Source: Viridothelium virens
Taxonomy: Eukaryota; Ascomycota; Dothideomycetes; Trypetheliales; Trypetheliaceae
Assembly: GCA_010094025.1 (NCBI GenBank)
Contig: ML991851.1
Span: forward strand, 60,095 to 124,094
Direction: 5' to 3'
Length of the DNA: 64,000 nucleotides
The notes under the pieces are model-generated. The model was not told the origin of the DNA, searched no databases, and saw only the letters and a program-made list of their open reading frames with translations. The translations under genes and the position numbers were made by a program. Every line of letters starts with the position of its first letter. Position 1 is the first letter of the stretch. Positions 45,790 to 63,063 of this stretch are shown piece by piece.

Positions 45790-46680
45790 TGCTTGACGCT
45801 TGATGTCTGATGGTTCATTAGATCATTGTCATTATCTTCTGTTAGTCTTTGATTCGTTAGTGCAAGATATAAGTGACAACCGACGCTGGTGGATTATCTA
45901 ATCATCCAGGCTTTGCTCAGGAAACATAGCGAAACAGACTGACAATCGTGATAGACAGGCGTTCAACAAGAGTTTCATGGATTAGCGTAGGATTGCAAGC
46001 CTTGCGGAAAATATTTTCAGGTCGTAGTACCACGTTGAGCTCTAGAGTAAAGCAGCGCATGGATTGAAGAATATGAAGCAAGACATTGGCGGTATTTTTC
46101 CCCTCACGACCCCTTCTTTGATCTTAGACCAAGTGTACTCCACTCCCTCATCTCGTCTACTCATTACCTCCATGCCATATTGAGATGTTGTCGTCAGATA
46201 TAGGTAGGCTTTATCCAAATTCCGGAGATTACCCCTCCGGCTCCGGAGATCACATGATAGCGGTGAGCCGGGCTCGTTCGTGGATCGCAGCCGATTTTGC
46301 AGGATAATTGTGGCGGATGCATACAAATCCACTAAGGCAGGCCAATTAGCTTTTGACCGAGCACAATGCCAACGAATCCGGCATGCTCTGGATTTTCTGG
46401 ACGCTGTGAGGTCTGACATGGCATCCTCAGATTGTGCCTTGGGCCGCTCATCCACGGATGGTAAGGTTTGTTCTTCATCACTAATCGTCTCACTCCATCT
46501 CGTCGTTCATACTCATCTCTACAAACCCGCGTTGATTTCATCACTGTGTTGAACGCGACTGTTATGGAAAAGAGAGCGGCCCGGATCAATGTGCTCGTCC
46601 AATCGATGAGGTAGCTGGACTTCGGTGTTGTCACGCGGCCAAACACCACTCGGACTCAGTCAAGCCTTGTGTAAAACCAC
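45790..46680. other. Intergenic
   Basis: This 891 bp gap has short frames on both strands (for example 46280-46552 plus) without family features or splice support. I see no gene. Confidence 0.5.
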
Positions 46681-47360
46681 ATGGAGTCCAACCCCAACTG
46701 CGCCATTTGTAACGCCCCTGCGTTGCCGGAATGTCAGTCTCCTCTACATAGAGTGAGGAGAAAGATGACTGATTAGAGATCCAGGTCCCTGCGAAAGCGA
46801 ACGACTTACCATTGCGGTCCGTCAAGCAGAAAAGCGAGCCATGGACGACCGATTACATCATATAAGGTATTTTAATGTGGAAAACAATCGTTCACGTTTT
46901 CATTAACAACATACCTAGAGAGTGGGTCATTGCCCATGCTCGCGCCCAGATTCTTCAATCCTTCAATACTGTGACCTCTCATCGTAAGATTGCGCATAAG
47001 AAGTACCTTGCCTCTTTACCATTCTACGACTTATATGTTCAATATGCTGGACACCCACCGCTCCATCCACGACAGCTCCAAGCCCTCAAAACCCAAATCC
47101 ACGAGGCAGAGCTTCATTTCAAACGCGGCATCGACGCCGACTGGAAGGACAGTGTTGTCAAGTATCCGGAGGTCCTCAATTATTACTACTCCCTCGTTGA
47201 GATTCGATTGCCAAACGACAGGAGTAGTTCAGTTCTGGAACCGCAACTAGGTATTGGAAAAGATCGGAGGAGAATTAGAGAGAGAAGACCGGGAGTGGGA
47301 GGTCTTGCTCCTCCTGTTGCTCCCGCAGCTCCTCCGGGACCAGGTTGGACGTACATCTAA
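46681..47360 (+). CDS. Conserved small protein of unknown function (N-terminal CxxC pairs)
   Basis: Three exons, 46681-46732, 46785-46866 and 46919-47360, encode 191 residues; both introns are 52 nt. The first donor is GTCAGT and the junction gives CAICNAPALPECPCESERL, with C-x2-C and C-x-C pairs that may bind a metal. A basic helix follows (VRQAEKRAMDDRLHHIREWV), then HKKYLASLPFYDLYVQYAGH, PLHPRQLQALKTQI and RGIDADWKDSVVKYPEVLNY. The tail is Pro/Gly-rich. I recall similar small proteins in many filamentous ascomycetes but no name or function. The short exons would easily be missed by a gene finder, which would report only the last part (from 46875). Confidence 0.75.
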
Positions 47361-48086
47361 TTGCAACGCGCGGAAGTCTTCGAAAAATTGCTCTTCGTCT
47401 GAGAAATTGCGCTTTTATACCCCGGACTATGAGAATGCTCCGCAAAGGAAAGAAGGGCGAGACAGCATACCTGTTCCGCAGTTTGACCCAACGTTTGGTC
47501 CACCCATCAATCTATTGCTTCTGATGGACTCGAATATCATAATGTTCTCAAGAAACAAGACCAAAAAAAAAGCGAAGGACAACTTCTATCTAACGAGATG
47601 AATGGCCTACCTGTTCGATGTTTTGAAATTGCATTCAGCGAGGCGTTGGTCTAATGCATTTAGCGCTGGGTTTAAGGTGTTTTCTCCTGGAGGTTTTTCA
47701 TTTTTTGCAGGTCATGATCATCTACCAGCTTAGAATAGTTCATCATAGCCACGGAAGAAAACACCCACGTTCCACTCTCGTCAGTTCCGGATAGACATTG
47801 GTTTCTCGCGCAATCTGGAACCGCTAGTATCTATGTAGTCGCTACGGACTAGCCGTTGACACAAACTCATTTGGAGATTCGAATAGAGGGTATCGAAAAC
47901 AATTCTACAGACTCGTCTATAGGTCTATACCCAGAAATGCCAGCAGCCGCGCGACTTTCCCAAGCTAACTCTGACGCCACATGCCTTCTCAGAAACCCAC
48001 GTGCTCTTGCAACTCATCCCGTCCCATTCATCCGATCCCATCCCAATCCAACTCCTGCCTCCCAAGAAACCCGTCCACTTTCCCCA
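47361..48086. other. Intergenic, convergent 3' ends
   Basis: This 726 bp gap lies between the small conserved gene and the CCDC124-like stop. No gene is supported. Confidence 0.5.
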
Positions 48087-48814
48087 TCACGCCGGCCCCG
48101 CCAACCTCGCCTCCGTCTTCGCCCTCTCCCCCTGCTGTAACTCCCGCACCTCCTCGCGCGTACTATCAAACCGCGCCGTCACCTGATTAAACGGGTTCTC
48201 GGGACTCTTCTCAAACTCCTTCCTTATCCGCTCGACCTTCTGATTCCGCCGCAGCGCCTTCTCGTCCTTCATCTCCTCCAGCCGGCGCGCCTCAAACACC
48301 GCGTACGCCGCCTTGAACCGCCGCTCTGGGTGCCGCTCTACTTGCTCGTTGCTGCCGCCTCCGCCGCGGTCGAGCGTCAGGGCGTCAAGCGCGTCGTCGA
48401 TGTTGGACGCGGACACCGAGCGTAGTTGGTTGGAGGAGGGGGCGTCGAGGCCTGAGAGGTCGAGCCCTCGCGATTTTTTGGCTGGCGCGTTCTTGCCTTT
48501 CGAGGGCTTGCTGGGGAGCGAGGCTTCTTCTTCGGCGAGGAGGGCGTCCTTTTCGGCTTTTTTGCGGGCGGCGTCGGCGGTCTTGGCGGCGGCGGCGTCT
48601 CTGTAGAAGGCGTTTATGAGTATGTTTCCTGGAGACACATGTGTAGGGTTGGGTTGGCATACTGTTTGGCGGTAGATTTGGCGCCTTTACCCCATTCGAC
48701 GTCTTCTGCTACTGCCTTCTTGCGATCGACTTCGGCTTGCTTGGCCGCAGCCGCTTCGGCCTTTTTGGCGTTGCCCGCCGCCTTCTTTGTGTTGACTTCT
48801 CCACGTGGGGCCAT
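48087..48814 (-). CDS. CCDC124/Lso2-like ribosome-associated protein
   Basis: Two exons, 48663-48814 and 48087-48600, encode 221 residues; the intron is 62 nt. The N-terminus (MAPRGEVNTKKAAGNAKKAE) is a Lys/Ala-rich basic helix, which continues across the junction (DAAAAKTADAARKKAEKDAL) as coiled coil. A short linker precedes the CCDC124 core (ERHPERRFKAAYAVFEARR, then GLRKNQ-like KALRRNQKVERIRKEFEKS and NPFNQVTARFDSTREEV). In yeast and human, this family binds hibernating or recovering 80S ribosomes at the P site and intersubunit bridges. It is a cytosolic or nuclear ribosome-recovery factor by homology. It is longer than yeast Lso2, as usual for Pezizomycotina and animals. Confidence 0.88.
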
Positions 48815-49158
48815 GATTGATATAGTGAAAGACTAGGCCGGGCGAGGCTTCCAGGGACGAGGTAAGCGGATTTTTAGGATGTAGAGGCGTAGAACGAGTG
48901 GGATGGTGGGGCTGAGTGGAAGTGGCGCCTGTCGAGTCATAAAGCCTTTCCTTTCCGGTTGTGACGTACATTGCAGGAGCAATAAGTCAGCATGGCACTC
49001 AATAAATACTAAGTCAAGTAGGCACGCTGAGATATCGACTTTCCGGTCTTCAAAATCTCTTTCTTTTGGCTCTCTCCTACATTTGACGATTTCGCAGAAT
49101 CGAATCCTGCCCAATATGCCGCATGCTGTATCATACACATGAACAGAACTGTAGATAT
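48815..49158. other. Intergenic
   Basis: This 344 bp gap separates two minus-strand genes and should hold the CCDC124-like promoter. No gene is seen. Confidence 0.5.
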
Positions 49159-50587
49159 TTACAAATCACTCGAGTCCAGTCTCTGCACAACCATTCCGGA
49201 GCTCGCACCACCGCCATTGCATATGGCCGCGCAACCGTACTCTCCTGGCTGTAGTTGGTGAAGCAAAGTCACGAGTATCCTTGCCCCTGAACTGCCAATG
49301 GCGTGACCCAAGGCAATGGCTCCGCCTAGTGGATTCACATTGTCAGTGCCCAATTCTAAGATCTATACGCAGTATTAGCGATCTGATGCCGGAGATCTTA
49401 GCAAGAGCCATACCTTTGCGTTCGCCTTGATCACCGCCGCGAAGGCCTCATTGAACTCCCAAACTTTCACATCCTCTTTTCTAATACCGGCCCTTTCTAA
49501 GACGAGTGGGACGACTTTCGCCGGCGCGATTGGGAAATCGATAGGAGCGACAGCAGCATCGCCGTAGGATACTACTCGTGCCAGTACTCGACTATTCTTC
49601 CCGTACTCCTTGGCAAAGTCTTTTCCACCAAGCACGAGGGCGCTAGCGCCATCATTGAAACTGGAGCTGTTCGCAGCAGTTACGGTCCCGCTTCCATCTC
49701 TCACGAATGCTGGCTTCAAAGTTGGGACTTTCTCCAGCTTCAGTCTGTTGTATCCTTCGTCTTCGACCACTTCAACGTCTTCCTTCTTGCCCTTTACCGT
49801 GACTGGCGTAACCTCCTCCTTGAACTTTCCCGACGCCCATGCTTCTTGCGCTCGCTTGTAACTCAGGATCGCAAATTCATCCTGCTCTTCTCTGGAGATC
49901 TTGTACTTCTTGGCCGTCTCCTCTGCACATACACCCATGTGGACCTGATTGTAGACATCCCACAGTCCATCACTGATCATGCCATCGCTAACCTTGAATT
50001 CTCCAAATGACGGCTGCTGGCCCGCTCGCGGTAAGTAGTAGGGTACGCGCGACATATTCTCCATGCCCCCAGCAACTTGTGCACCTCCTAGACCTAATTG
50101 AATGTTCTGTGCAGCGATGGACACGGCCTTCATGCCAGATGCGCAGACTTTGTTGATAGTTGTTGCCTCAACAGTGTTCGAGAGGCCAGAATGGATTGTG
50201 GCCTGCCGCGCTGGTGCTTGACCCGACCCAGCTTGGAGCACTTGGCCCATGTAGACGTCGGTGACTCGGTCATGAGGAACTTTGGATCTCTCAAGGGCAG
50301 ATTTAATCGCTGTTGCGCCGAGGGAGGTGGCAGGTACGATCGTAAATGCGCCATTGAACTGTCAGAAACTTCAGTCAGGTTCCTATCACCACAAGCAGGT
50401 ACTCAAGACATACGACGCCGACTGGTGTTCTCGTGGCACTTATTATGTACGCGTCTTGTATCTGTTGGTATGAAGCTCTTGAGGTATGGAAGCTTCTACG
50501 AGCCGAAGCTAACCGCCTAACACAGGACCGGGACTGTGTTGCTGTTCGAACAGTATGGGGAGCTGTCCTCCCAATTGACAAGTGCAT
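49159..50587 (-). CDS. Acetyl-CoA acetyltransferase (thiolase), mitochondrial
   Basis: Three exons, 50414-50587, 49414-50358 and 49159-49362, encode 440 residues. The start at [20 protein letters not shown] begins an Arg-rich presequence of about 40 residues ending near [10 protein letters not shown], so mitochondrial import is likely. Thiolase motifs are complete: nucleophile Cys130 in [20 protein letters not shown], His393 in [12 protein letters not shown] and Cys421 in CNGGGASSG. It condenses two acetyl-CoA to acetoacetyl-CoA, or runs in reverse in ketone-body and isoleucine breakdown. The presequence argues for the catabolic mitochondrial form rather than the cytosolic ERG10 form. Its start lies 507 bp from the divergent nitrilase gene. 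Confidence 0.95.
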
Positions 50588-51094
50588 GGTGCTGAATGTT
50601 GACAATTAGGAGCAATTGCAGCTAGGAAGGAGTACTTGATGCCCTACGTGCTCCCTCCATGACTCGATTTAAGGAGTTCATAGCAGCATTGAGAGCAGAA
50701 TAAAGCCGAGTGGTGGCACCGCGGGGTATCCTAGCTCCTCCGACGGCCTCGGATGCTGAATGAAGAGACCACGCAGTTGGGCCACCTCCAAGACCTGATC
50801 GTGGCCACATTTCATAGGCGTCTGCTTTCCAACGGTCGAACTCGCGTGACTCGGTGAAATAGAGATTTACGGCAGGGGCAAAATCTCCGGCAGCATCCTA
50901 TATCCACCTTAGCTCATCGAGATTGACATCATACCACCTTGCTACTAATTGCGGAGGCATCAGGTAAGTTTTGAGACCATTTCACAGCATCACGATAGGA
51001 TTTTGTATATGCGTTTGTCAGCCGAATTAGTTCTGCCTACTGTGCGTGCAATAAGGTACTCAGTCGTACGGGACGGAAGCTGCGGCTGTTGAAC
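50588..51094. promoter_or_regulatory. Divergent promoter region of thiolase and nitrilase genes
   Basis: This 507 bp lies between two divergent start codons. A 62-codon minus-strand frame (50622-50810) is not supported by any family. Both promoters must be here; individual elements cannot be placed. Confidence 0.45.
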
Positions 51095-52348
51095 ATGCCT
51101 CAAACATTGAAGCTTGCGGCTTCACAATCTCGGACCTTAGATACTACTGCTGAAACGCTACGTTCGCTCGAGGACACAACACGTACTGCTGCTTCACAAG
51201 GCATTGACCTCATCCTCTTTCCCGAGGCTTTCCTAGGTGGCTATCCGAGGACGTGTACTTTTGGTGCCGCTGTTGGAGCTCGTGACCCGTTTGGCCGCGA
51301 ACAGTTCCTCCAGTATTTTCACTCTGCGGTAGATCTTGGCGATACACCAACTGGATCTGGGGACGACTGGATCGAGCGCCGACTACCTGTCGCCAAAGGC
51401 ACGAGCCACAGAGGCGATGGCACGAGAGAAGAACTCGAGCAAATTGCAAGAGAGACCAAAGTCTTTATTGTCACTGGCCTCGTGGAGAAGAGCGGCGGAA
51501 CCTTGTATTGCGCCGTTGTCTATGTTTGCCCGCAAAATGGAGTTCTTGGCAAAAGACGAAAGGTCATGCCAACCGGTAGTGAAAGGCTTATATGGGGTCA
51601 AGGCCAGCCCAGCTCACTTCGTGCGGTGACAACAACTATTCGAGGTGTGAAACTTACGCTAGCAGCCGCAATCTGTTGGGAGAACTATATGCCCTTGCTG
51701 AGGCATTCTCTCTATTCACAGAACGTCAATGTATACCTTGCACCTACTGCAGATGCCCGGGACACCTGGCTACCACTGATGCGCACGATTGGAGCTGAGG
51801 GGAGAGCTTTTGTTCTCAGTGCAAATCAGTGCGTTACAAGGCAGCATCTGCCGGCATGGGTCCGTGGCGACACACCTGAGAAGTCAGATCACAGGACGCA
51901 GGAGATCAATTCACCTGCAGCAGGTCAAGACTCAAACGTGGTGCAAGACACTGCCTTGAATGGCTCGACTGTCGCAGATGATGAGAGCCGGCCAAGCAGG
52001 CGAAGGGCGTCGGTCGTGACGCAAACTCCAGAGAGACACGAGATTTGTTGGCCTGCAGCTGATTCAGCAGGGAAACCAGGACAGGAACCCGTCAGTACTG
52101 CAGCCAAGTCATCAAATGGAGCAGAATCGGACTTCGTCAGTCGTGGCGGCTCATGCATCGTGTCTCCACTGGGCGAAGTTCTGGCTGGGCCACTGTGGGA
52201 AGTTGAGGACGGTGGCCTGCTGACTGTCGAAGTTGATTTTGAAGACTGTGAACGAGGAAGATTGGACCTGGATGTTGCAGGATCCTATTCACGAAACGAC
52301 GCGTTCAAATTGACGGTTGAAGGTCTGGAGCTGGATCCTCCACCCTGA
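51095..52348 (+). CDS. Nitrilase
   Basis: A single exon of 417 residues starting at MPQTLKLAASQSRTLD. The catalytic triad is complete: Glu44 (ILFPEAFLGGYP), Lys156 (RRKVMPTGSERL) and Cys194 (AAICWENYMPL). The CWEN motif and the GGYPR signature place it with true nitrilases, which turn nitriles into carboxylic acids and ammonia, rather than amidases or Nit2-type enzymes. A Ser/Asp-rich insert of about 85 residues (around 262-347) sits between ANQCVTR and the conserved GGSCIVSPLGEVL; family members I know are shorter here. The substrate is unknown. Plant-associated fungi use such enzymes on cyanogenic or indole nitriles, but nothing here shows that. Confidence 0.92.
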   Translation: MPQTLKLAASQSRTLDTTAETLRSLEDTTRTAASQGIDLILFPEAFLGGYPRTCTFGAAVGARDPFGREQFLQYFHSAVDLGDTPTGSGDDWIERRLPVAKGTSHRGDGTREELEQIARETKVFIVTGLVEKSGGTLYCAVVYVCPQNGVLGKRRKVMPTGSERLIWGQGQPSSLRAVTTTIRGVKLTLAAAICWENYMPLLRHSLYSQNVNVYLAPTADARDTWLPLMRTIGAEGRAFVLSANQCVTRQHLPAWVRGDTPEKSDHRTQEINSPAAGQDSNVVQDTALNGSTVADDESRPSRRRASVVTQTPERHEICWPAADSAGKPGQEPVSTAAKSSNGAESDFVSRGGSCIVSPLGEVLAGPLWEVEDGGLLTVEVDFEDCERGRLDLDVAGSYSRNDAFKLTVEGLELDPPP

Positions 52349-52577
52349 ACGTTAGGAGTGAAGACTTGGGCGCCTACTGGAAGCTGTCACAGTATATTAC
52401 GGGTATGTCAATCGATTTCTGTCTCCTGATAGCCTTGATATGTACTTGAAGGCGTTCTGAAAAGATAACCGTTACAATGATAATGTCGAAAGGTTATAGC
52501 ATGAACTTACCTATTGCAGTCGTCGACGGTACGACTGACTCCTATACATGTGAAAAAACAAAACCAAAGCGTAGGTA

Positions 52578-53141
52578 CTAATTACGAAAACATGATACAT
52601 ATCCTGAAAGCCTCTCTTCAAAGAAGCTTTTCACAGCCAGCACGCCGTTCGTCTTCTTCAGGACTGATTGCTCTTGAAATGTCAGGCCTCGATAAGGATC
52701 ATCGATCTTGAGTGCGTGCAGTGCCCTTATTGTCCTTCGATGGAGGCATGTGAGCTTGTCCTTTGCAGCGCCTGACGGTTTCTCCTTCCTCTCTAGGTCG
52801 TCCAGCTCTGCAAGATACAACTGTCGTTCACGTCTCCATCTTCGGATGATTGTCACTTGCTGTCTTTCTCTGCATGCCTCACAAGGAAACTCGATCTCGG
52901 CCACTATCCTCGTCACTTTGTCGCAATATCCATCGTGTCGATTTGAGGCCTTATCGTCGCTATGCCCGCACGAGTCATTCCAGATCTCAATTTTACACAT
53001 CTCGACGCTTTTGAGTAGATCTCCGGTTGGGAAGTTACTGTGAAAACTTTCTGGACCTAAATCTTGCTTGCATTCTCGATTTAAGTCAGCATGCTCTTTG
53101 TCCACATTGCACGTGCGGAAACAAGAGCCTTTGCGTATCAT
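52578..53141 (-). CDS. Hypothetical protein, CGH/CxxC type (tandem gene A)
   Basis: A single-exon frame of 187 residues; translation could also begin at MCKIEIWNDSC (53000). It shows C58-G-H60, C73 and C87-x2-C90 (SCGHSDDKAS, DGYC, FPCEACRER). A charged helix follows (RRWRRERQLYLAELDDLERK). The arrangement CGH...C...CxxC followed by a charged helix also occurs in the next two genes on the same strand, so I see it as the shortest and most divergent of a tandem trio. The motif could bind a zinc ion, but it is not a full RING. No family is recognised. It lies 351 bp from gene B. Confidence 0.6.
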   Translation of the reverse strand: MIRKGSCFRTCNVDKEHADLNRECKQDLGPESFHSNFPTGDLLKSVEMCKIEIWNDSCGHSDDKASNRHDGYCDKVTRIVAEIEFPCEACRERQQVTIIRRWRRERQLYLAELDDLERKEKPSGAAKDKLTCLHRRTIRALHALKIDDPYRGLTFQEQSVLKKTNGVLAVKSFFEERLSGYVSCFRN

Positions 53142-53492
53142 TCTTTCACATTTCGACTAGCCTCAAAGGATACGGATTCCAATCCTTTCAGAAGCATTTC
53201 GCAATGGGAAGGCGACGAAATCAGCACAATACCGACGGCGTGACCGTGGTTAAGACTCGTGCACGTTCACACTCCCGGAGTCTTTGGTGACTGAGGTTTC
53301 TAATTTTAACATAGCAAGCTAAATTTAGGAAGGTACAGTGAAATCCCTCTCGCTAGGGAGCTAATCAGATGCTTCTGCGACCGAAGAAATGCGGGCATTC
53401 CCGAGCAACCGTCCCCGGACATACTACATGAAAGAAAAGCAAGAAGTGAAGCGCACGAAGCTTCTTCTGCCAAAGACTACCTAATATCAGCC
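53142..53492. other. Intergenic between tandem genes A and B
   Basis: This 351 bp gap holds the presumed promoter of gene A. No gene is seen. Confidence 0.5.
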
Positions 53493-54872
53493 CTAATCCT
53501 CGTATGCTTCGTCAGGATCCTCCCAGTCCTCGTATGCTTCGTCAGGGTCCTCCCAGTTCTCGTATGCTTCGTCATGATCCTTCCAGTCCTCAGCATCTTC
53601 CGAGTCTGGATAATCTTCGTTCTCTTGGAGGGACTCATCATCGTCCGACCTTTCGTCCGCAGAAAGTTCCTCGAATTGGTCGCTCATTTCCTGCATGGAT
53701 GGATTGAAGAAGTATACTTGTCGACGTTGGGGTCTCTCCCCCACTTCTTCTTCGCCTCTCGTGGGTGACTCGGGCGACGATCCTCGTGAGGAAGGTTCCT
53801 GAGAACGCTCCCCTAGTCTCTGCATTAGCATGGTGCCTCTGGCTGATACCGGTGGCTTTGACCGAACGTACGGTGATTTGGCTGAACCCGAAATTTTGCC
53901 CACTGATTGGGCATTCGGAAATTTGGCCTTTCCATCCATATGTCTGTTCTTCCTAGACTCACTTGTTGAGGGCTGCTGAGCTGCCCTCTCCGCTCCCTCT
54001 CTCACAGCTTCCCATGTTTCTCTGAAGTCGCGCTCTGTCTTGTCTTTCGAGCTTTGGCGCGACGATTCGGCTCGTCGGTCATGCTCCTTCAGCTGTCGCT
54101 CCTGTTGGGCCTCCGCCTGGGTATCCTCCTCGAGCCTCAGATCGCAGAGCTTGGCTGCGAGATGATCGGCGGCTTCGTATCCGATATCAAGCGCTCGCAT
54201 CTTGCCGATGAGATCATACTCGATCTGTATGGGCGTCACCTTGCGTGATGCCTCGAGCAATGTTGCTCCGCGGGGCGATAGGTCACGCCGCGATCGAAAG
54301 TCTCGAGGAGATTCCCCCTCGGTGTCCCTCGCTGGGGATCTGCTACGGTCTTGTCGCACGTGAGCAGTATCTTCTCTTCTGCCTCGGATGCTGCCTCGAA
54401 ACTCGGCTAGCATCTGCTCACGTCGACTCAGGGCTTGCTCACCGCATTCCCCCTGGAGGGGCACCTCGCGACAACGTCGACCCGCCTGGAGGGCTTCTTC
54501 ACGGAGCTCCTTCATTTGTTTCTCGACCTCATCCATGTATATGAGATAGATGTAGCGGGCTCGAGGATCGTCCATGTACTCCACCTCCTGGTATTGTTGT
54601 CTTTTTTCCAGGAACATCGACATGGTGGTTCTATCAAGGCATGTCGGGCACACGAATGCTTCCGTGGTCACATCTTCCTCTGCCTCTTCGGCGTTGTCGG
54701 CGAGATCCAATGCCGTGCTGGTCTTCGGTTTGGCGCAATTTTGTGCGCACCTCTCGATCCAGGTTGCGATCATAAAATGCCCACATTGGAGCTGGTGGTG
54801 ACTGGAGTATCCTTCGAGGACCTCCTTGCAGCGAGTGCGATTGTCTGTGAGTGGGTCGTTCGTTCGGCCCAT
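53493..54872 (-). CDS. Hypothetical protein, CGH/CxxC type (tandem gene B) with acidic repeats
   Basis: A single-exon frame of 459 residues starting MGRTNDPLTDNRTRCK. The N-terminal 80 residues carry C30-G-H32, C42-x3-C46 and C75-P-x-C78 (LQCGHFMIATWIERCAQNC, AFVCPTCLDR). A helix rich in Tyr and Glu follows (MDDPRARYIYLIYMDEVEKQ). The middle is Arg/Asp/Glu-rich and low-complexity, probably coiled coil and disordered. The extreme C-terminus has three tandem 10-residue repeats (consensus DWEDPDEAYE). The six Cys/His positions suggest one zinc site. Cys spacing is nearly the same as in gene C, so the two are likely paralogues. Function is unknown. Confidence 0.7.
   Translation of the reverse strand: MGRTNDPLTDNRTRCKEVLEGYSSHHQLQCGHFMIATWIERCAQNCAKPKTSTALDLADNAEEAEEDVTTEAFVCPTCLDRTTMSMFLEKRQQYQEVEYMDDPRARYIYLIYMDEVEKQMKELREEALQAGRRCREVPLQGECGEQALSRREQMLAEFRGSIRGRREDTAHVRQDRSRSPARDTEGESPRDFRSRRDLSPRGATLLEASRKVTPIQIEYDLIGKMRALDIGYEAADHLAAKLCDLRLEEDTQAEAQQERQLKEHDRRAESSRQSSKDKTERDFRETWEAVREGAERAAQQPSTSESRKNRHMDGKAKFPNAQSVGKISGSAKSPYVRSKPPVSARGTMLMQRLGERSQEPSSRGSSPESPTRGEEEVGERPQRRQVYFFNPSMQEMSDQFEELSADERSDDDESLQENEDYPDSEDAEDWKDHDEAYENWEDPDEAYEDWEDPDEAYED
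53496..53590 (-). repeat. 30 bp tandem repeat x3 inside gene B
   Basis: Three near-identical 30 bp units encode the acidic decapeptide repeats at the C-terminus of gene B, with only a few base differences between copies. Recent tandem duplication is likely, and copy number may vary between strains. Confidence 0.8.
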
Positions 54873-55285
54873 TTTCGAAAATTATTTCGGGGAGACCCCC
54901 AGTGCCAAGGATGTTGTTTAAAAAAGGGGGGGGTTGCGAAGCTTGGGGAATTGAAAAAGGATTCGAGGAGCGCGGAGGTTACGGTTACAGGAGAGAGCAC
55001 AGAGCTGGGGGGTGCCTGGGTTAAATAGTGCGGAAATGAAGTGACTCAGAGGCCTATTACTGAAATATGGCACATGACAGACGGTTACTACTGCAGACAA
55101 TGATTCCTCTTAATCACATCTTGTCGAAGCTAGCCTTATTCAGGAGATTCAGGGGTGCATATCGTTTCACCTCCAATCACGCCTGGAGATGGCCCGGGTG
55201 AGGGGCCGCCATCTGCAAAGAGCTACAGGTACCAAAAGTGAAGAGAGAAAATCTTCTATTCTTAGACTGCTGGAGAGATTTTCCA
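54873..55285. other. Intergenic between tandem genes B and C
   Basis: This 413 bp gap holds the presumed promoter of gene B and a short A7/G8-type homopolymer run near 54920. No gene is seen. Confidence 0.5.
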
Positions 55286-56515
55286 TCACTTTCTTCCAAA
55301 GTGGAGAGTCTTTGACCGAGGACTAGTGGACTTCTTCAACTCAGCCTGTCTACTCTTGTCAATCTGGGCTGTCAACTTCAAGATATTTGCACTTACCTCT
55401 TTTACGCGCTGGTCCATCGAGATCCACAAAAAGTCTTCTTCGTCAATCAGGTCAAGTGGTTTCACCGTATTCTCTGTCACTCCATTGTGGGCGCGTCGGA
55501 TGGGCGTCAATCTGTTGAGAAGCTGTTCATACGTCAGCTGAACACCTTCGTCAAAACTGGAGCCCTCGACAATCGAAATCGGACGTTTCGTGTCGTACTC
55601 GTTGATTGAAAACGTCGAGCCTTGGTCGAAAGAGGGGCTCTCATCTGATGGCTCGATTCTACCATCAATTGCATGACATGGCCGTCCGATCCCTGTCAAG
55701 TTTGCCTCATCCTGCTTACGCTCCCCCGACCACACCCTCTGCAAGGCCTGCCGTCGCTGCTCAACGGCTCGCTCAGGAAAGTAGCCCAAGAGCACCCTGA
55801 TACCTTCCATTTCGTTGACAAAGGTCATGTACTTCTTGGTATACTTCTTGTCCAGCAGCTCAGAAATACACCTCGGGCAGCAGAAGGTGTCTGCAGTCCG
55901 ACGCATCATTTCCCCAGAGCTCCTATTGACATGCTGAAGCTTCTCATCGTCTACCTTGCAGTTCTTGGAACAGGACTGCGGCCCTTCAGGTGTGACGACC
56001 TTGTGGCCACACTCGAGAACATGAGTCAATCCACCGAACCTGCATGGCTCGAGGTGGGGATTGGGATACAGTGGGTAGAATGCAGGTAGTGGTGGAATCG
56101 ACGGGGACTCGGAGGACAGACTGGATGGCTTTTGCTTTGTGACAGGCAGGTCAGCAGGCGTCTCCTCGATAGTGGGCAGCCCTACGCTTTGTCCATGATT
56201 TTTGGAGAGTGCCTTTCGGTTTATGCGATGCACTTTCTTTGGCTCGGGCCAGTCGCCTGGAGATGGGTTTAACTTGTGGTAAATTGGACCCCTAGATGCA
56301 GGGGCTGGACTACCGCGTTTTGTTAGTTTCGGTGTTTGCGACAATGGTATCGAATTGTAGGGCGTCGGAATGTTGGACGTCACGACAGCGCAACCCGTGC
56401 GCTTTGGCATTGGTATGGAACTGGTCGACATCCTCGATTTCGTCGATGAGAAAGAAGACTGTCGAGCGTGCCTCCCCGGGTATATAGCTGCGATTTTGCT
56501 GCTCTTCGTTGCCAT
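55286..56515 (-). CDS. Hypothetical protein, CGH/CxxC type (tandem gene C)
   Basis: A single-exon frame of 409 residues starting MATKSSKIAAIYPGRH. The first 150 residues are Ser/Pro/Lys-rich and disordered. The Cys/His module lies at residues 169-216: C169-G-H171, C182-x3-C186 and C213-P-x-C216 (LECGHKVVTPEGPQSCSKNC, CCPRCISEL). A Tyr/Lys-rich helix follows (DKKYTKKYMTFVNEMEGI). The C-terminal half is mostly helical and charged. The spacing between cysteines differs from gene B by only one or two residues, and both have C-P-x-C. This points to common descent although the flanks do not align by eye. No function is assigned. It precedes the flavin monooxygenase gene by 460 bp. Confidence 0.7.
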   Translation of the reverse strand: MATKSSKIAAIYPGRHARQSSFSSTKSRMSTSSIPMPKRTGCAVVTSNIPTPYNSIPLSQTPKLTKRGSPAPASRGPIYHKLNPSPGDWPEPKKVHRINRKALSKNHGQSVGLPTIEETPADLPVTKQKPSSLSSESPSIPPLPAFYPLYPNPHLEPCRFGGLTHVLECGHKVVTPEGPQSCSKNCKVDDEKLQHVNRSSGEMMRRTADTFCCPRCISELLDKKYTKKYMTFVNEMEGIRVLLGYFPERAVEQRRQALQRVWSGERKQDEANLTGIGRPCHAIDGRIEPSDESPSFDQGSTFSINEYDTKRPISIVEGSSFDEGVQLTYEQLLNRLTPIRRAHNGVTENTVKPLDLIDEEDFLWISMDQRVKEVSANILKLTAQIDKSRQAELKKSTSPRSKTLHFGRK

Positions 56516-56975
56516 TGCAGACCGTCTTCCAATATTTCTTTCAAGATTGCCGAAAACCAGTCTTCAGGCTACAGGAAAAGTTCAAGAAGGCAGATCAATG
56601 AATGACGGAACGGTGAAGCAAAATCTAGGCAATCGGAATAGCACACGGAAAAGAACGTGAATATGGCTCTCTTGACTATCCAGTATATGAACCTGTTGAT
56701 AAAGACGTCATCTAACAAGGTCATTGTCAACATTTTGGTAATGCGGCTTTGTGCGCCTAGTGACACAAAGCTTTTTCTACATGACTTCCGTTGAAGGTCA
56801 TCTTTGAGCATCACGAGCGTGTGGTGAATGTTTACCTTGGTCAAAGCTTATTCATCCAAATAGGTTAGAGTTGAACTGGAATGAATCAAGCAATGTGAGT
56901 CGCCGGCTCAACTTCGTATCAGCCTCCAATCAAGAGAACACGCGTTTAAAGATCACTCAAGCGTTATGGTTCCCT
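56516..56975. other. Intergenic between gene C and the monooxygenase
   Basis: This 460 bp gap holds the presumed promoter of gene C and the 3' end of the monooxygenase transcript. No gene is seen. Confidence 0.5.
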
Positions 56976-58312
56976 TCAAGATTGCAGCTCCCTCTCCATC
57001 ATCTCAACCGCCTCATCACGGTGCTTCTCGTTGTCAAAGTCAATAATGAAGTCCCATCTCGGCAATAGGTTCGCCCTCAATTTCTCAAAGTCCAGCTTCG
57101 TATCTTCGCCCAAGCCGTTTACGATCAGACCCGTGCCCCGGCTCGACTCAACGATGCGCTGTGTCCGTGGGCGGCGGACGTGGTCGTACACCTTGAGAGC
57201 GGTCAGCGCCTCAGCTGGGGTCTTAGCACGGCCGAGTAAAGTGGAAAGAATCAGGCTGTCCTCAATAGACATGCCACCGCCAGAGCCCTGCCAAGGTGTT
57301 GTAGCATGTGCAGCATCGCCCGCAATGCAGACAGGACCGGACACGTAGGTACGCGCCGGGGGATGCTCCCAGAAATACATGGCATTTTGTTCCGGCGCAT
57401 TGCAAAGTAGCTACACAAATGGTGTCAGCTTGTTATCATTTTGTTCCTAGTAGAGACAGAAGATCGTTATACCTGATCCACGGCTTTATACAAATGTGGT
57501 GGCCAGGCCTGATAGAGTTTCTTAATCTCATCGGCGCTCACGGTACGTGTCCAGTGATCCGAATCCACCGCGTCCTTCTCATGAGAAGCGATAACAAACT
57601 GCACAAGTCGACCATGGTCCAAAACGTTATGCAGTATGTACGATCTGTCGCCAATCCAACTATACTCACGTGCGTCCTCAATGTCCACAACTCCCTTACC
57701 AATATTCGCTTGAGCTTCTGCGTATGGCTGGAGGGTCATAACGCACCATGAACCGGTATTCCTAGGGGAGGCGGCGGGATCATCCGCGCCCAGGATAAGC
57801 CTACGGACAGTGCTACGGATTCCGTCAGCACCGATAAGAATATCACACTCATGGGTGGTGCCGTCAGTAAAGCGAAGTTTCATAGATCCATCGCTATTAT
57901 AGTCAATCTTGTCAAGCTTCTTGCCAGCGTGCATACGTTCTTGAGGGACATCAGCCAGTAATTCTCGAAGAAAAGCAGCACGGTGAACAATGCTGGTAAC
58001 GCGTTTCCCCGTGGTCTCGTCTTTTGTTTCATCGATCATATTGCCAGAGTTGTTACCTTGGGCGAGCATAAATCGGACCCCTACCATAGGAACAGCACCA
58101 GCTCGTTTGAGGCATTGCGCTGCCGCAGGGCCGATGAGGTCCAGAGCAGCGAGAGCATTACGAGCTATGCCAATAGCCATGCCGGACTCTTTAAATGCCG
58201 CTGCCGACTCAAAGATGTGCACGTCCAGGTTGGGATAGGGTAGAAGCGCATAGCAGAGGGACGCACCAGCCAGTCCGCCGCCAGTAATTGCGATTCTTAT
58301 TAATCGAGACAT
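56976..58312 (-). CDS. FAD-dependent monooxygenase (salicylate hydroxylase-like)
   Basis: Two exons, 57473-58312 and 56976-57410, encode 424 residues; the intron is 62 nt. The start MSRLIRIAITGGG places the dinucleotide motif GGGLAGASLCYAL at the N-terminus; an upstream in-frame ATG (58372) would displace it by 20 residues. Other group A flavoprotein marks are GADGIRSTVRR (DG motif) and CIAGDAAHATTPWQGSGGG (GD motif). Such enzymes hydroxylate aromatic or other substrates with NAD(P)H and O2. There is no membrane anchor or signal peptide. It lies 1.2 kb from the repeat-peptide precursor on the same strand. Fungal RiPP clusters often have flavin monooxygenases, so it may be part of the pathway, but the class here differs from the FMO-type known from ustiloxin. 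Confidence 0.92.
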
Positions 58313-59547
58313 GATGCTGAGTGAAGACTTCCGATCCTTCTGAAACGAGGCGCTCTGTGTTTTCGTGAGCAAAGAGGCAGTCGCGACAATTTATCATGCC
58401 TACGTGGGCTGCTACGCGCTACTCATCCCTGCCTATCCTGAAGAGAGGATAACATGCGAGCAAGGCGATTTTTCAGGTCCCAATTGCTCGGCCAGCTATA
58501 CGTAATGAGGCACCGCAGGGATGGAAACCCACCGGTTGATGCTAGAGGCTGAGCAGCTGTACAAAGTAGAGAGTGCATTGCTGTCCAACGAGGACGCTAA
58601 ACCGCACTTGGAAGAAATGCCTCAGAAAAGTCGAATACTAGTAGGTACCTTAGCTAGACGTGCTAGGCTCCAGCGATATACCAAGGCGGAGAGGCAGCCC
58701 GACCAAGAAAAAGCAGCATTCATCTGACCCATGCATGACAGCTGAGGCAAGACAGAGGTTTCGTCACGTACAGGACACTGTCAATAGGAAGGCTCCTGCT
58801 CTCGCTGACTGCTGCTCTGTCTGGGTCCTGTAGCGCAGCGCTCTGCCCCTGTTGAACGGATATCCTCCAAACATGCATTCGACGCGGGGCGTAAGAGTAT
58901 TACGCACTTTCATGTCATTATCTCGCCTCATAACAAGGCAATCGATTTCAGCATTCGGCGCAGGGTTACTGTGCGGGATCGAGTAATATTGCCTGACTCT
59001 CTGGCCCACTGCTGGATGCGTCGGTGCACGGCACACTTCCTAGCCTTCCTGTGCCCCCATGACTAGAGTACCCGGTCGTGCCGGTTTCGCCGTGGTGGAT
59101 CATATGCGTGTTGGTGATTTACGTGCAGCAGAATGTCCACGGTGCCACTATCGTAACTGTTTCGAGCAATAATGTCGAACCTGATCAAATATCTCGATCG
59201 GTCATCCATTGCTTGGTGTTTCCTTACATCTATTGGCTCACCATTGGTGGAGTAGCTACCTAGGTAGTTATCCAATCGGGTATAGACGACTTCAGAGATT
59301 TCACCTCCTTAATTCCGAGGTCATCAAACGAATTTCAGTGGCTATTCTAAAACATCAAAGCTTTTGATCCGATGTAGTCAGCACTGCAATTCAATAAATG
59401 AATGTCCGTGATTTTGTCTCAGGGATAGGTACAGGGGATGGGATTCGTGTACGCTAGTCTACCACCAACGGTCTTCGGCTCATCCCGGCAGCCCTACTGG
59501 CAACCCCCAAATCAGACTCCACTTCACCACAGACGTCGCTATCAGAC
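58313..59547. other. Intergenic between the monooxygenase and the precursor gene
   Basis: This 1,235 bp gap has only short open frames (for example 58521-58727 plus, 59078-59263 plus) with no family features. It holds the monooxygenase promoter. Confidence 0.5.
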
Positions 59548-59888
59548 TCAATCATGCTTCTCCTTGAGCCTCAAATCGGAATCGGACTGAGTAGTCCCAT
59601 CACGCTTTTCCTTTGGTCCAAAGTCCATGTCGAATTCAGTAGTTCCATCGCGCTTGGATTTGAGCGCAAAATCAGGGTCAAACTCGGTCGTCCCATCGCG
59701 CTTGAGTTTGAGCCCATAATCAGGATCAAACTCGGTTGTCCCATCGCGACGAGTGACTATCCTCAGTGAGTCTTCTCGTGATTGTATTGTAGATGGAGTG
59801 GGTGGTGTCGAGTGGACGATTTACCTGGAGCAATTGGGGCAGCTGCAGTGAGAGCTGCGAGCAAGGCAATAATGAAGGACTTCTTCAT
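59548..59888 (-). CDS. Candidate RiPP precursor: secreted Kex2-processed repeat peptide
   Basis: Two exons, 59825-59888 and 59548-59756, encode 90 residues; the 68 nt intron starts GTAAAT and ends GATAG. An acceptor four bases upstream would give an immediate stop, so this one is favoured. A signal peptide (MKKSFIIALLAALTAAA) is followed by RR at 24-25. Four repeats follow: three of 16 residues and a last of 17, each starting DGTT. They are separated by KR at 40-41, 56-57 and 72-73, always in the form K-x-K-R, a typical Kex2 site. The first three cores share DGTTEFD plus an aromatic residue; the fourth is diverged and lacks aromatics. This is the layout of dikaritin/ustiloxin-type RiPP precursors and other Kex2-processed peptides. 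Neighbouring UstY-like genes favour RiPP. The product is unknown; I make no toxicity claim. Confidence 0.85.
59551..59745 (-). repeat. 48 bp tandem repeat x4 encoding peptide cores and Kex2 sites
   Basis: Units lie at 59698-59745, 59650-59697, 59602-59649 and 59551-59601 (the last is 51 bp with a changed end). Changes between units fall mostly in the middle of the core and often leave the DGTTEFD start and K-x-K-R end unchanged, as expected if the ends are needed for processing. Confidence 0.88.
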
Positions 59889-60678
59889 ATTAAATTTGGT
59901 CGACTTGAATGGCTGGGGTTTTGGGGCAGAAAGAACTTGTTTTCTTCTCGTGAAGCAAAGGACAAGGAAGCTTCGACCAGACTTGCTGACTCAATCTTGG
60001 AGGCTTTGAATGGTCTCTGGAATGATGCCCCTTAAATATGGTATTCTGAGGACTGTCATGATAATGACTTGGGAAGATTCCTAGTCTATCTCCGACTGCC
60101 ACTTGCGCTTGACAGCCGCCTGCAGATACCGTGGGCTGCTGAGACGGGCAGAAACACCGGACTCATCAAGCAGGGTTCTGAGACTACCACAAGTCCTTCA
60201 GCCGCGATCGTCTTCATGTACGTTGGCGTTGCTTCTGCTTTGTCTTGGCACTCGGATGCAACATACCGGGCGTCTGCAGGGAAGGCCTGTCGAAATCACG
60301 ATTCCAATTTCAATTTCTTAGATTGATATGGATAATGGTCGTTGAATATGACACTAAGCACAGGAGCCAATCTGTTGGCAGCTGAAACTTGACCGAGTTA
60401 CATCAAGCTGTATCTACCCATGGCGCCATCACTCACGATCGGCTCCCGGGCATGGTATGGAACGTCTGATCCGCAGGCTTTTAGCTCGGCTTCTTTCGTG
60501 AATCGGTGTGACTGACTGGAAGAATCTGCATTTTCCCATAGCGTTGTACATCTTTGGGAATGTAGGAGTGATCCGCTCGAACCTGGTCAGAGCTTCTCTC
60601 ATGGTGACGATACATCCATTGCCTTCGTTGTTTTCACAGTCCCGAGTCTTCCCAGTCACACATCCGCAAGACTGAGCT
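59889..60678. promoter_or_regulatory. Divergent promoter region of the precursor and UstYa-like genes
   Basis: This 790 bp separates the divergent starts of the two core genes, so both promoters lie here, as often seen in co-regulated clusters. On the minus strand, TATTTAAG at about 60033-60040 lies some 150 bp before the precursor ATG and could be a core promoter element. CGGCTCCCG at 60440-60448 is an inverted CGG triplet pair of the kind bound by Zn2Cys6 regulators; this is weak evidence alone. No gene is seen. Confidence 0.4.
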
Positions 60679-61674
60679 ATGTCTCTCGAAGAGAAGAGGC
60701 CGTTTATAGGCGACGATGAAGAATCTGAGAAATTGAAAATTGCCCACTCAGCATGCTCACACACAAGTAGCAGACGAGTCTTGGTCGTATCTATTGTTAC
60801 GAATGTGGTGCTGTTCATCTTTTGCCTCCTCCTGAGTGTGACGGTGCTATTCCTTTCGAGTCTCAATACATGGAGGACCAGATACGAGCGAATCTCGGAC
60901 CCATACTGTAATGTAGTGGTTCTTTACGAAGGTTGAGACCAGATCACTTATACTATTTCTCAGCGCCTGCCAACGACATCATTGAGTATGAGTATCGATC
61001 AATAATACCCAATGATACTCGGTTCACCGGTCATCCCGGGCCACAGTGGGAGCAATCAATGCATGAATTGATGGAAGGCAAGCTGTCCTACGGTTAGCTG
61101 TCTTGCTTGACTTCTTGTAACTCTCATATCCAGGAACCCTTATACGAATATCTGAGGATGATCTAAAGCTGTACGGTTCCGATTCCATACCACTGAAGGA
61201 TGGCGGGTACGCAGCAGGTCTGGGGATTGGCCATAATCTTCATTGTGTGGTACGTCTAAAGCTGTTCTCTCTATTAGGGATAAAGCATAGATTTTAATGA
61301 CGGTATGTAAAATAGAAATGGATCAAGAAGTTTCTGTACTGTGAACACTTTTTCCCAGACTTGGATCCATCGAGTGGAGACTTCAACTATCTTCAAGAAC
61401 ATTCAGGTCAGTTGCTTATCCTTGAAAGCTCTAACTTTCCTTTTCGTTTGGGCTTCTTGGGCTAAAGGATGTTCCAGATCATTGTCTTGACTTCCTGCGG
61501 CAAAGTAGTATGTGTCACTTGGACTACTCCATGTACACGGTGTACTGGGGAGAGCGCAGGCAGGATATCCCAACACATAACTTGCCAGGCCTGCAGAAAT
61601 GCGTAAATTGGGATAAGTTGCATAAATGGATGCTGGACCGGTCGGCGAATACAGATATGCTGGTGGGACCTTGA
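60679..61674 (+). CDS. UstYa-like DUF3328 protein (putative RiPP oxidative cyclase)
   Basis: Five exons, 60679-60907, 60964-61077, 61134-61249, 61316-61406 and 61478-61674, encode 248 residues, typical for UstY proteins. An acidic N-terminus is followed by one transmembrane helix (about residues 34-61, VLVVSIVTNVVLFIFCLLLS). The family start PYSPAND and the two HxxHC motifs are present: HNLHC at 148-152 and HSDHC at 182-186, the second formed across intron 4. The end has WMLDR. In ustiloxin, phomopsin and asperipin clusters, such proteins are required for oxidative macrocyclisation of the precursor core. Intron 2 would use a GC donor (G|GCAAGC, 56 nt); a GT alternative at 61093 would make a 41 nt intron and add four to five residues, so that junction is uncertain. 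It lies 790 bp from the precursor gene. Confidence 0.9.
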
Positions 61675-61998: not shown

Positions 61999-63063
61999 TC
62001 AACTCAACTGCTCGAGACCTACCTGATCAGTGCTGCCAGCCGTATTGTCTCTGACCAGAGTATCATAGAAATTGTCAGCGCCCTCGAACTTGACCGGTCG
62101 CTTCTCAGCCCACTCTTGAAGACGGTGCCAATCAGTGCATCTTCGTGACCCAGTTCGATTCCCTTGGATTGCGTCAGGACCTTTCCAATAGTATGTGTTG
62201 ACTGTCAGGTCAGCGTTGCACATAATCCCTTGGCGGAGAACCTCAAAACAGTGGTCTGTCAATACCGTTAGTAGAAATAGCAAAGAACGAAGGATCAATC
62301 TTATCACAGTTCTTACCCCAGTGGTCAGGTGTGAACTCATGGGTGCCCTTGAATTTGGTATAGTACTCCGGGTGCTGAGCTTGGTATAGGCGTTTCTATT
62401 ACATTATAAGCGAGCTCTTTCTAGAAGGGGCAGCGAACGACCATTTACGCACCACGCAATGCAGCATATGATTCGACTCCAAGTAGCCAATGTACCCGCT
62501 GCCATCTCGCAGGGCAATGGAAGTTCTGTTCATTCTGTTCAGCTCCTCTTTAGAGATCTTGACCATAGTCGCTGAGATACAATCAGCCAATCCTCATCAT
62601 AGTACAATATCATAACTACTCAATCATACATTTGAGCAGTCTCGACCAGGCTTGATCTACTTCTGGGCGAGGCTCTCCTGTGTACGGACTAGCGACGCGT
62701 CCCCAATTGAGGTCTTTGACTGTGTACTGAACTGCCGTTTGAGCGGGTGCTGGTAAACACCTTGACATTAGTGGAGTGAGAGACAATCTTGCACGGATTA
62801 TTTCAAAACTTACAGTACGCCATCTTAAGTGCATCAGCGTTGACATCGCTGTCTTTGCCATGGCGCGCAGGTGTGACATTCCAGACAAGGAAAATGACAT
62901 TCAAAGACAGGAAAGCGATGTGGAGGCAGAAAAGAACGCCATGCGTCTTGACAATGCGGAACCTTAAAGAGCATCTTTTGTTTTCGGGAGTTTCGTTGTA
63001 ATTAAAATCGCCTTCTTCATTTGTCAGAAAGGGCTTTTCTTCGCCGTCATCGTTCGAAGGCAT
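61999..63063 (-). CDS. UstYb-like DUF3328 protein (putative RiPP oxidative cyclase)
   Basis: Five exons, 62814-63063, 62630-62749, 62453-62571, 62317-62395 and 61999-62255, encode 274 residues. Layout matches the family: acidic start (MPSNDDGEEKPFLTNEEGD), a transmembrane helix around 42-63 (GVLFCLHIAFLSLNVIFLVW), then MAYSPAQTAV across intron 1, QAWSRLLK, and two HxxHC motifs, HMLHC at 158-162 and HWDHC at 188-192. The latter is formed across intron 4 and leads into FEVLRQGIMCNADLT. The C-terminus has a Trp-rich DWHRLQEWAEKR. The two UstY genes differ strongly in sequence, so they are distinct family members rather than a recent duplication. A pair of UstYa/UstYb types acting on one precursor is known in several dikaritin clusters. 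All introns are GT-AG. Confidence 0.92.

Follow-up and report, generated by a model that had tools for sequence, protein, structure and literature searches.

A predicted dikaritin-type RiPP precursor with a conserved DGTTEFD core beside two UstYa genes in Viridothelium virens

The stretch of DNA analysed here (64,000 nucleotides, hereafter the window) comes from the lichen-forming fungus Viridothelium virens and carries close to its right end a small gene on the minus strand (59548-59888), whose structure rests on the reading frame, the splice sites and 30 relatives. Its two exons comprise 273 coding bases, from the ATG at 59888 to the TGA at 59550-59548. Exon 1 (59825-59888, minus strand) encodes the signal-peptide-like MKKSFIIALLAALTAAAPIAP, whereas exon 2 (59548-59756, minus strand, stop included) follows an intron of 68 bases (59757-59824) with a GTAAAT donor after 59825 and a GATAG acceptor ending at 59757. 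Two further in-frame acceptors, at 59775 and 59772, keep the frame open and would add six or five residues, respectively, ahead of VTRR, so that the end of the intron is inferred; the acceptor ending at 59757 is preferred because its TAG comes after a CTCAC-like stretch, as in the acceptor consensus. The signal peptide was judged by hydropathy (a peak of 2.7 across 11 residues) and by the N-terminal consensus MK..LL.ALA.AAP, common to the relatives of the precursor. The encoded protein is ordered as MKKSFIIALLAALTAAAPIAP-VTRR-DGTTEFDPDYGLKLKR-DGTTEFDPDFALKSKR-DGTTEFDMDFGPKEKR-DGTTQSDSDLRLKEKHD.

A preliminary description of this DNA had proposed a two-exon minus-strand gene of 273 coding bases, which frame and splice sites confirm at 59548-59888, as well as a signal peptide and four dibasic-bounded repeats, which were found as a hydrophobic start and repeats preceded by RR or KR. 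It had also mentioned a plus-strand frame of 71 codons overlapping the gene; such a frame is present and spans 103 residues from stop to stop (59458-59769). Pfam searches matched no family for the precursor protein and none for this overlapping frame. The remark that the gene is hidden holds equally: the UstYa-B protein encoded nearby is deposited (P0032, 100% identity), but no full-identity match to the precursor is among those listed from the protein collection, and for want of one it appears to be unannotated in V. virens. A gene of 273 coding bases was apparently overlooked by annotation next to an enzyme gene that was annotated.

Repeats 1 to 3, each of 16 residues on the minus strand, are DGTTEFDPDYGLKLKR (59698-59745), DGTTEFDPDFALKSKR (59650-59697) and DGTTEFDMDFGPKEKR (59602-59649), and repeat 4, DGTTQSDSDLRLKEKHD (59551-59601, minus strand), is a variant of 17 residues that ends in KEKHD and the stop instead of the terminal KR. 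A repeat-length peptide from this precursor would be, for example, DGTTEFDPDLAFK. The core is DGTTEFD in three repeats and DGTTQSD in one, Tyr occurs in repeat 1 only, and Trp, looked for in the four repeats as in the WxW of the MF_alpha pheromone repeat, was found in none. Within the DGTTEFD of repeats 1-3 all nucleotide differences lie at codon position 3 (2, 6 and 5 in the three pairs), and the whole 48-base units of these repeats show 5, 11 and 27 pairwise differences at codon positions 1, 2 and 3, respectively. A six-frame scan of the window for dibasic-bounded segments occurring in three or more similar copies returned one match, the precursor. Among the 87 family cores described below, repeat 4 is one of 2 in which positions 10-12 are all non-aromatic; the second is in P0015, a protein of a 1141-base contig. 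The frame of repeat 4 is open, and Phe6 is also absent from nine other cores in four relatives; the repeat may be a decayed or unmodified copy.

Two complete UstYa/DUF3328 genes are located within 3.2 kb of the precursor start. UstYa-A (60679-61674, plus strand) is transcribed in the opposite direction to the precursor, and the divergent intergenic stretch of 790 bp between their start codons (59889-60678) could possibly act as a shared promoter. Its splice model of five exons (60679-60907, 60964-61092, 61134-61249, 61316-61406 and 61478-61674) encodes 253 amino acids with the motifs HNLHC and HSDHC and aligns with relatives over its whole length. UstYa-B (61999-63063, minus strand) is arranged tail-to-tail with UstYa-A and also has five exons (62814-63063, 62630-62749, 62453-62571, 62317-62395 and 61999-62255), encoding 274 amino acids with HMLHC and HWDHC. 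The spliced UstYa-B model is 100% identical over its full length to the deposited V. virens protein P0032, by which its splicing is checked. Another deposited V. virens protein, P0101 (140 amino acids), covers just 57% of UstYa-A. The scores against PF11807 are 126 bits for UstYa-A and 157 bits for UstYa-B, compared to a curated cut-off of 25 bits. Both proteins carry HxxHC(x)nHxxHC; in alignments made of 23 of the 42 A matches and 39 of the 60 B matches, with the window proteins added, both halves of the motif are found in 24/24 A rows, the first half in 40/40 B rows and the second in 38/40. Hydropathy over 19 residues predicts an N-terminal transmembrane helix in both, peaking in UstYa-A at residue 34 (2.96) and in UstYa-B at residue 42 (2.39). 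No relative of UstYa-B with a solved structure was found at E <= 1.

To the left of the precursor, a FAD monooxygenase gene (PF01494; 56976-58312, minus strand; exons 57473-58312 and 56976-57410; 424 amino acids) is a possible, unproven member of the cluster, and a scan of 13 other ORFs, located from 43525 to 59769, matched no tyrosinase, methyltransferase or peptidase family. Two adjacent ORFs at 43525-45786 gave a match to a homeobox KN domain, a weak match to the DNA-binding domain of a Tc5 transposase and, below the cut-off of that family, one to a C2H2 finger. On the other side the cluster may be cut, because the contig ends at 64000, 0.9 kb past UstYa-B. Repeated GATATCG and TACGATA words occupy this contig end (63900-64000), and they are perhaps the cause of the assembly stop beside the cluster.

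Relatives of the precursor were sought among 5.8 billion proteins with E up to 1, and 30 were retrieved, 28 of them at E <= 1.6e-4; even the weakest (E 0.88) carries the same repeat type. Named fungi account for 25 of the 30 (16 named genera and one host without genus name) and environmental data for the other five. The hosts with looked-up taxonomy are Eurotiomycetes, Sordariomycetes and Dothideomycetes, and the classes of the remaining host genera are presumed. When 25 relatives were aligned, their N-termini and repeats matched those of the precursor. Viral contigs searched for the DNA context of the precursor gave 59 pattern matches and no relative.

Counting each complete 12-residue core with at least five of nine matches to DGTTEFDPD, a rule that favours the motif, yielded 87 cores in 31 proteins (window included), with D1 in 86, G2 in 85, T4 in 86, E5 in 78, F6 in 77, D7 in 84, P8 in 65 and D9 in 83. 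At position 12, 83 of them have Phe, Leu or Tyr. A stricter pattern, with D fixed at position 1 and position 7 restricted to D or F, retained 81 cores. Independently of the counting rule, R, D1, G2, T4 and D7 are invariant in the first repeat of an alignment of 26 sequences. Of the 87 cores, 76 follow KR or RR and 10 others follow a single R, with linkers of varying length. Tyr is present in 19 cores and missing from 68.

Protein searches at E <= 1e-20 returned 60 matches for UstYa-B and 42 for UstYa-A. A species or source label shared with an A or B match was observed for 21 of the 30 precursors and for none of the other nine. As a proxy of co-localisation we used equal length of the longest contig listed per match, leaving out two V. 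virens records. By this proxy, of the 16 precursors from named fungi that also gave an A or B match, 11 had contigs of equal length and five had unequal ones (Triangularia verruculosa, Poronia punctata, Hypoxylon texense, Xylariaceae FL0255 and Cytospora mali, the latter mismatch comparing differently tagged records). Among environmental sources, one of five precursors was on a contig of length equal to that of an A/B match, and where a named label had A as well as B, the contigs were equally long in 17 of 21 cases. All three genes have contigs of one length in Xylaria curta (94895 bp), X. flabelliformis (265646 bp), Astrocystis sublimbata (296260 bp) and Aspergillus ellipticus (353065 bp). 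Locus tags are consecutive in A. melleus (N8T08_005560 for the precursor, N8T08_005561 for UstYa-A) and close in two Podospora species (QC761_404500, QC762_404496 and QC762_404494), in agreement with adjacency; JGI-style numbers are not strictly positional. Precursor and enzymes recur jointly in Xylaria and Aspergillus and, judged by tags or by the length of the contigs, in Paecilomyces and Podospora.

Trees were built from 29 of the 42 UstYa-A and 47 of the 60 UstYa-B matches, the two window proteins and nine UstYa pieces of the V. virens genome, leaving out short UstYa matches and V. virens records. The A relatives (30 rows) fall on one side of a branch with support 99/100, apart from B, and 43 of the 48 B rows form another set (support 99/99). 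None of the nine own-genome pieces falls in the A clade; their branches are long, which makes their placement unsure. Distances among A and among B proteins were correlated (r 0.61, 0 of 5000 permutations) over 15 pairs close to full length, a set obtained from 19 pairs by removing five fragmentary ones and adding P. variotii, whose A and B are on contigs of unequal length; with the fragments included, the correlation over 19 pairs was weak (r 0.23, 244 of 5000 permutations). It may reflect species history only. In a comparison of the window cluster with P0033, P0034, P0092 and P0007, both window enzymes are nearest to Paecilomyces/Aspergillus proteins of Eurotiomycetes, although their host is a dothideomycete, and the core variant DGTTEFDMDFG is common to the V. 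virens precursor and that of Paecilomyces variotii. Horizontal transfer or patchy loss could possibly account for this affinity; because Dothideomycetes are few among the matches, we draw no conclusion on horizontal transfer.

We consider it very probable that the gene at 59548-59888 encodes a dikaritin-type RiPP precursor, which would be processed by Kex2 and oxidised by the UstYa pair. This assignment, already made in the preliminary description, is supported chiefly by the two intact adjoining UstYa/DUF3328 genes and by other fungi in which all three genes recur. Judged on sequence, a Kex2-type repeat precursor and UstYa/DUF3328 genes, both part of the published definition of dikaritins (PMC10512285), are present, and cyclisation is predicted. 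Dikaritins in general share with this locus a signal-like start, Kex2-type repeats and adjoining UstYa genes (PMC10512285). Unlike those reported, the present core shows strong conservation from class to class and is mostly devoid of Tyr, the cross-linked residue in four of the five reported dikaritins.

The ustiloxin system (UstA, UstYa/UstYb, UstQ) similarly combines one precursor with two UstYa homologs. It has a YAIG core, 16 repeats and a tyrosinase (PMC6514808, PMC10512285), as opposed to the four repeats, the DGTTEFD core and the absence of any tyrosinase match in the ORFs scanned in V. virens, and its first intermediate is described as needing two UstYa homologs plus the tyrosinase (PMC6514808). 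A Tyr core of the ustiloxin/phomopsin type, as for a Tyr-Ile ether, was not recovered, Tyr being found in one of four repeats and 19 of 87 family cores. Asperipin-2a (AprA, AprY, AprT, AprR) resembles the present case by its small cluster with no tyrosinase among its four genes; its own features are a FYYTGY core, one UstYa homolog, a transporter and an isoflavone reductase (PMC6514808), the latter two being matched by none of the ORFs scanned at the V. virens locus.

The core of victorin differs from the DGTTEFD core. Victorin is a precedent for non-Tyr cyclisation, the side chain of its C-terminal Phe being linked to an internal Leu, and is a chlorinated toxin from an oat pathogen (PMC9233826). 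Gene inactivation attributed the dehydro-Ile, dehydro-Asp and dehydro-Pro of phomopsin to three DUF3328 proteins (PMC10880069). UstYa-A and UstYa-B also resemble the DUF3328 copper enzyme CctR in having HxxHC(x)nHxxHC and, ahead of the catalytic domain, a hydrophobic helix at the N-terminus. In CctR this motif is the copper site, with two coppers per monomer, and is required for activity (PMC12435403). CctR acts as a homodimer on a non-ribosomal cyclic peptide (PMC12435403), in contrast to the paired paralogous clades to which the V. virens enzymes belong.

Given its hydrophobic start, the preprotein would enter the secretory pathway and be cleaved by Kex2 behind the dibasic sites, presumably in the Golgi. 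As is usual after Kex2 cleavage, a carboxypeptidase would then trim the basic residues. Oxidation of the resulting pieces, DGTTEFDPD-[Y/F]-[G/A]-L-K and variants, would fall to UstYa-A and UstYa-B, two membrane-anchored enzymes of the UstYa copper type, and would take place in the Golgi or a compartment next to it. The two enzymes probably work as a pair, as their co-occurrence suggests. The oxidation is likely to produce either a desaturation or a link that joins the conserved DGTTEFDPD half to the aromatic/Leu end, an outcome favoured over a ustiloxin-like Tyr-O ether because most family cores are without Tyr. With no tyrosinase among the ORFs scanned and Tyr in one repeat only, such an ether is unlikely as the general chemistry. 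Candidate residues for modification are the nearly invariant Asp, the Pro that many cores have at position 8, and those of the aromatic end.

Some features of the family would also suit an unmodified, Kex2-processed linear peptide secreted as a pheromone- or hormone-like signal, the UstYa pair then serving another substrate. A core conserved across three classes would fit a signal, 68 of 87 cores have no Tyr, and most Kex2-processed repeat proteins (KEPs) have no DUF3328 neighbours, these being present for 22% of 7878 (PMC7329392). On the other hand, several genera show the precursor co-localised with UstYa genes of these two clades, and no second KEP for A and B to act on was seen in the window, which stops on the right where the contig ends. 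Of the KEPs that the survey annotated as mating factors, almost all are reported without DUF3328 neighbours, and the alpha pheromone MF_alpha has a Trp-containing repeat, WxW (PMC7329392). The present repeats contain no Trp and the protein matches no Pfam family. A linear product seems improbable to us.

We give still less credit to an effector-like or surface secreted repeat protein, acting whole or in pieces, whose dibasic sites would be incidental. Dikaritin precursors were earlier mistaken for effectors, making the reverse error possible (PMC9632046), but KR/RR ahead of 76 cores and a single R ahead of 10 others, between variable linkers, the lack of a Pfam family and the linkage to UstYa genes all speak against such a protein. 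That the frame is no gene but a chance opening across a DNA tandem repeat was rejected, its probability being close to nil. No full-identity record exists among the protein matches and a plus-strand frame does overlap; yet the 30 relatives, of which 25 align with matching N-termini and repeats, the concentration of differences at third codon positions, the single match in the six-frame scan and the adjoining UstYa pair all argue for a gene.

The preferred reading, a dikaritin-type precursor, raises the question of novelty. The four core substrings had no match in the main texts searched, supplementary KEP tables being outside this search, and within that scope the earlier statement that the core is undescribed stands. 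The 2020 KEP survey distinguished 838 types (PMC7329392), and the DGTTEFD family may already sit unnamed in its tables. We regard the DGTTEFD precursors as a new family inside a known kind, with a core absent from the main texts searched and distinguished by the conservation of the core across classes and by its mostly Tyr-free make-up; only five dikaritins are counted as reported by 2022 (PMC10512285). More tentatively, and with less than even confidence, we propose an unnamed RiPP family whose core would be near-unchanged from Eurotiomycetes to Sordariomycetes and Dothideomycetes, with a minimal set of precursor, UstYa-A and UstYa-B and a Tyr-free cross-link or desaturation. If true, the conservation of the core would point to a common target or a part in signalling, and away from a toxin engaged in an arms race. 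The locus makes it possible to test what bond is formed by a UstYa pair when the core is mostly without Tyr, and for what reason the core of a fungal RiPP stays constant over such distances. A 2025 survey of lichens describes the biosynthetic gene clusters of its two RiPP clans as having no conserved repeated regions, and its main text names neither Viridothelium nor Trypetheliaceae (PMC12048977); V. virens, by contrast, is a lichen fungus with a clear repeat precursor and enzyme pair.

In the V. virens genome (30.7 Mb), PF11807 gave 49 exon matches, and no second copy of the DGTTEFD precursor was found. A scan for repeat precursors, with the single match in the 64-kb window as its background rate, covered 41 overlapping UstYa loci (L010-L050; 195,771 bases), four of which (L030, L039, L040 and L050) correspond to the region of the window itself. 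It revealed two further repeat precursors, a number that is a lower bound because most loci reach about 1.5 kb past the UstYa match. One of them, on the minus strand near position 276 of locus L036 (G000 C36:18736-21981), has five Tyr-containing repeats like EASEDAIAYPDSYKR beside UstYa matches. The other, on the minus strand near position 3323 of locus L044 (G000 C16:263800-273799), has seven repeats like DQAEAHEWTGNPAKR, which contain His and Trp but lack Tyr, and lies near a UstYa match. With two further precursors near UstYa genes, V. virens seems to keep several such pathways.
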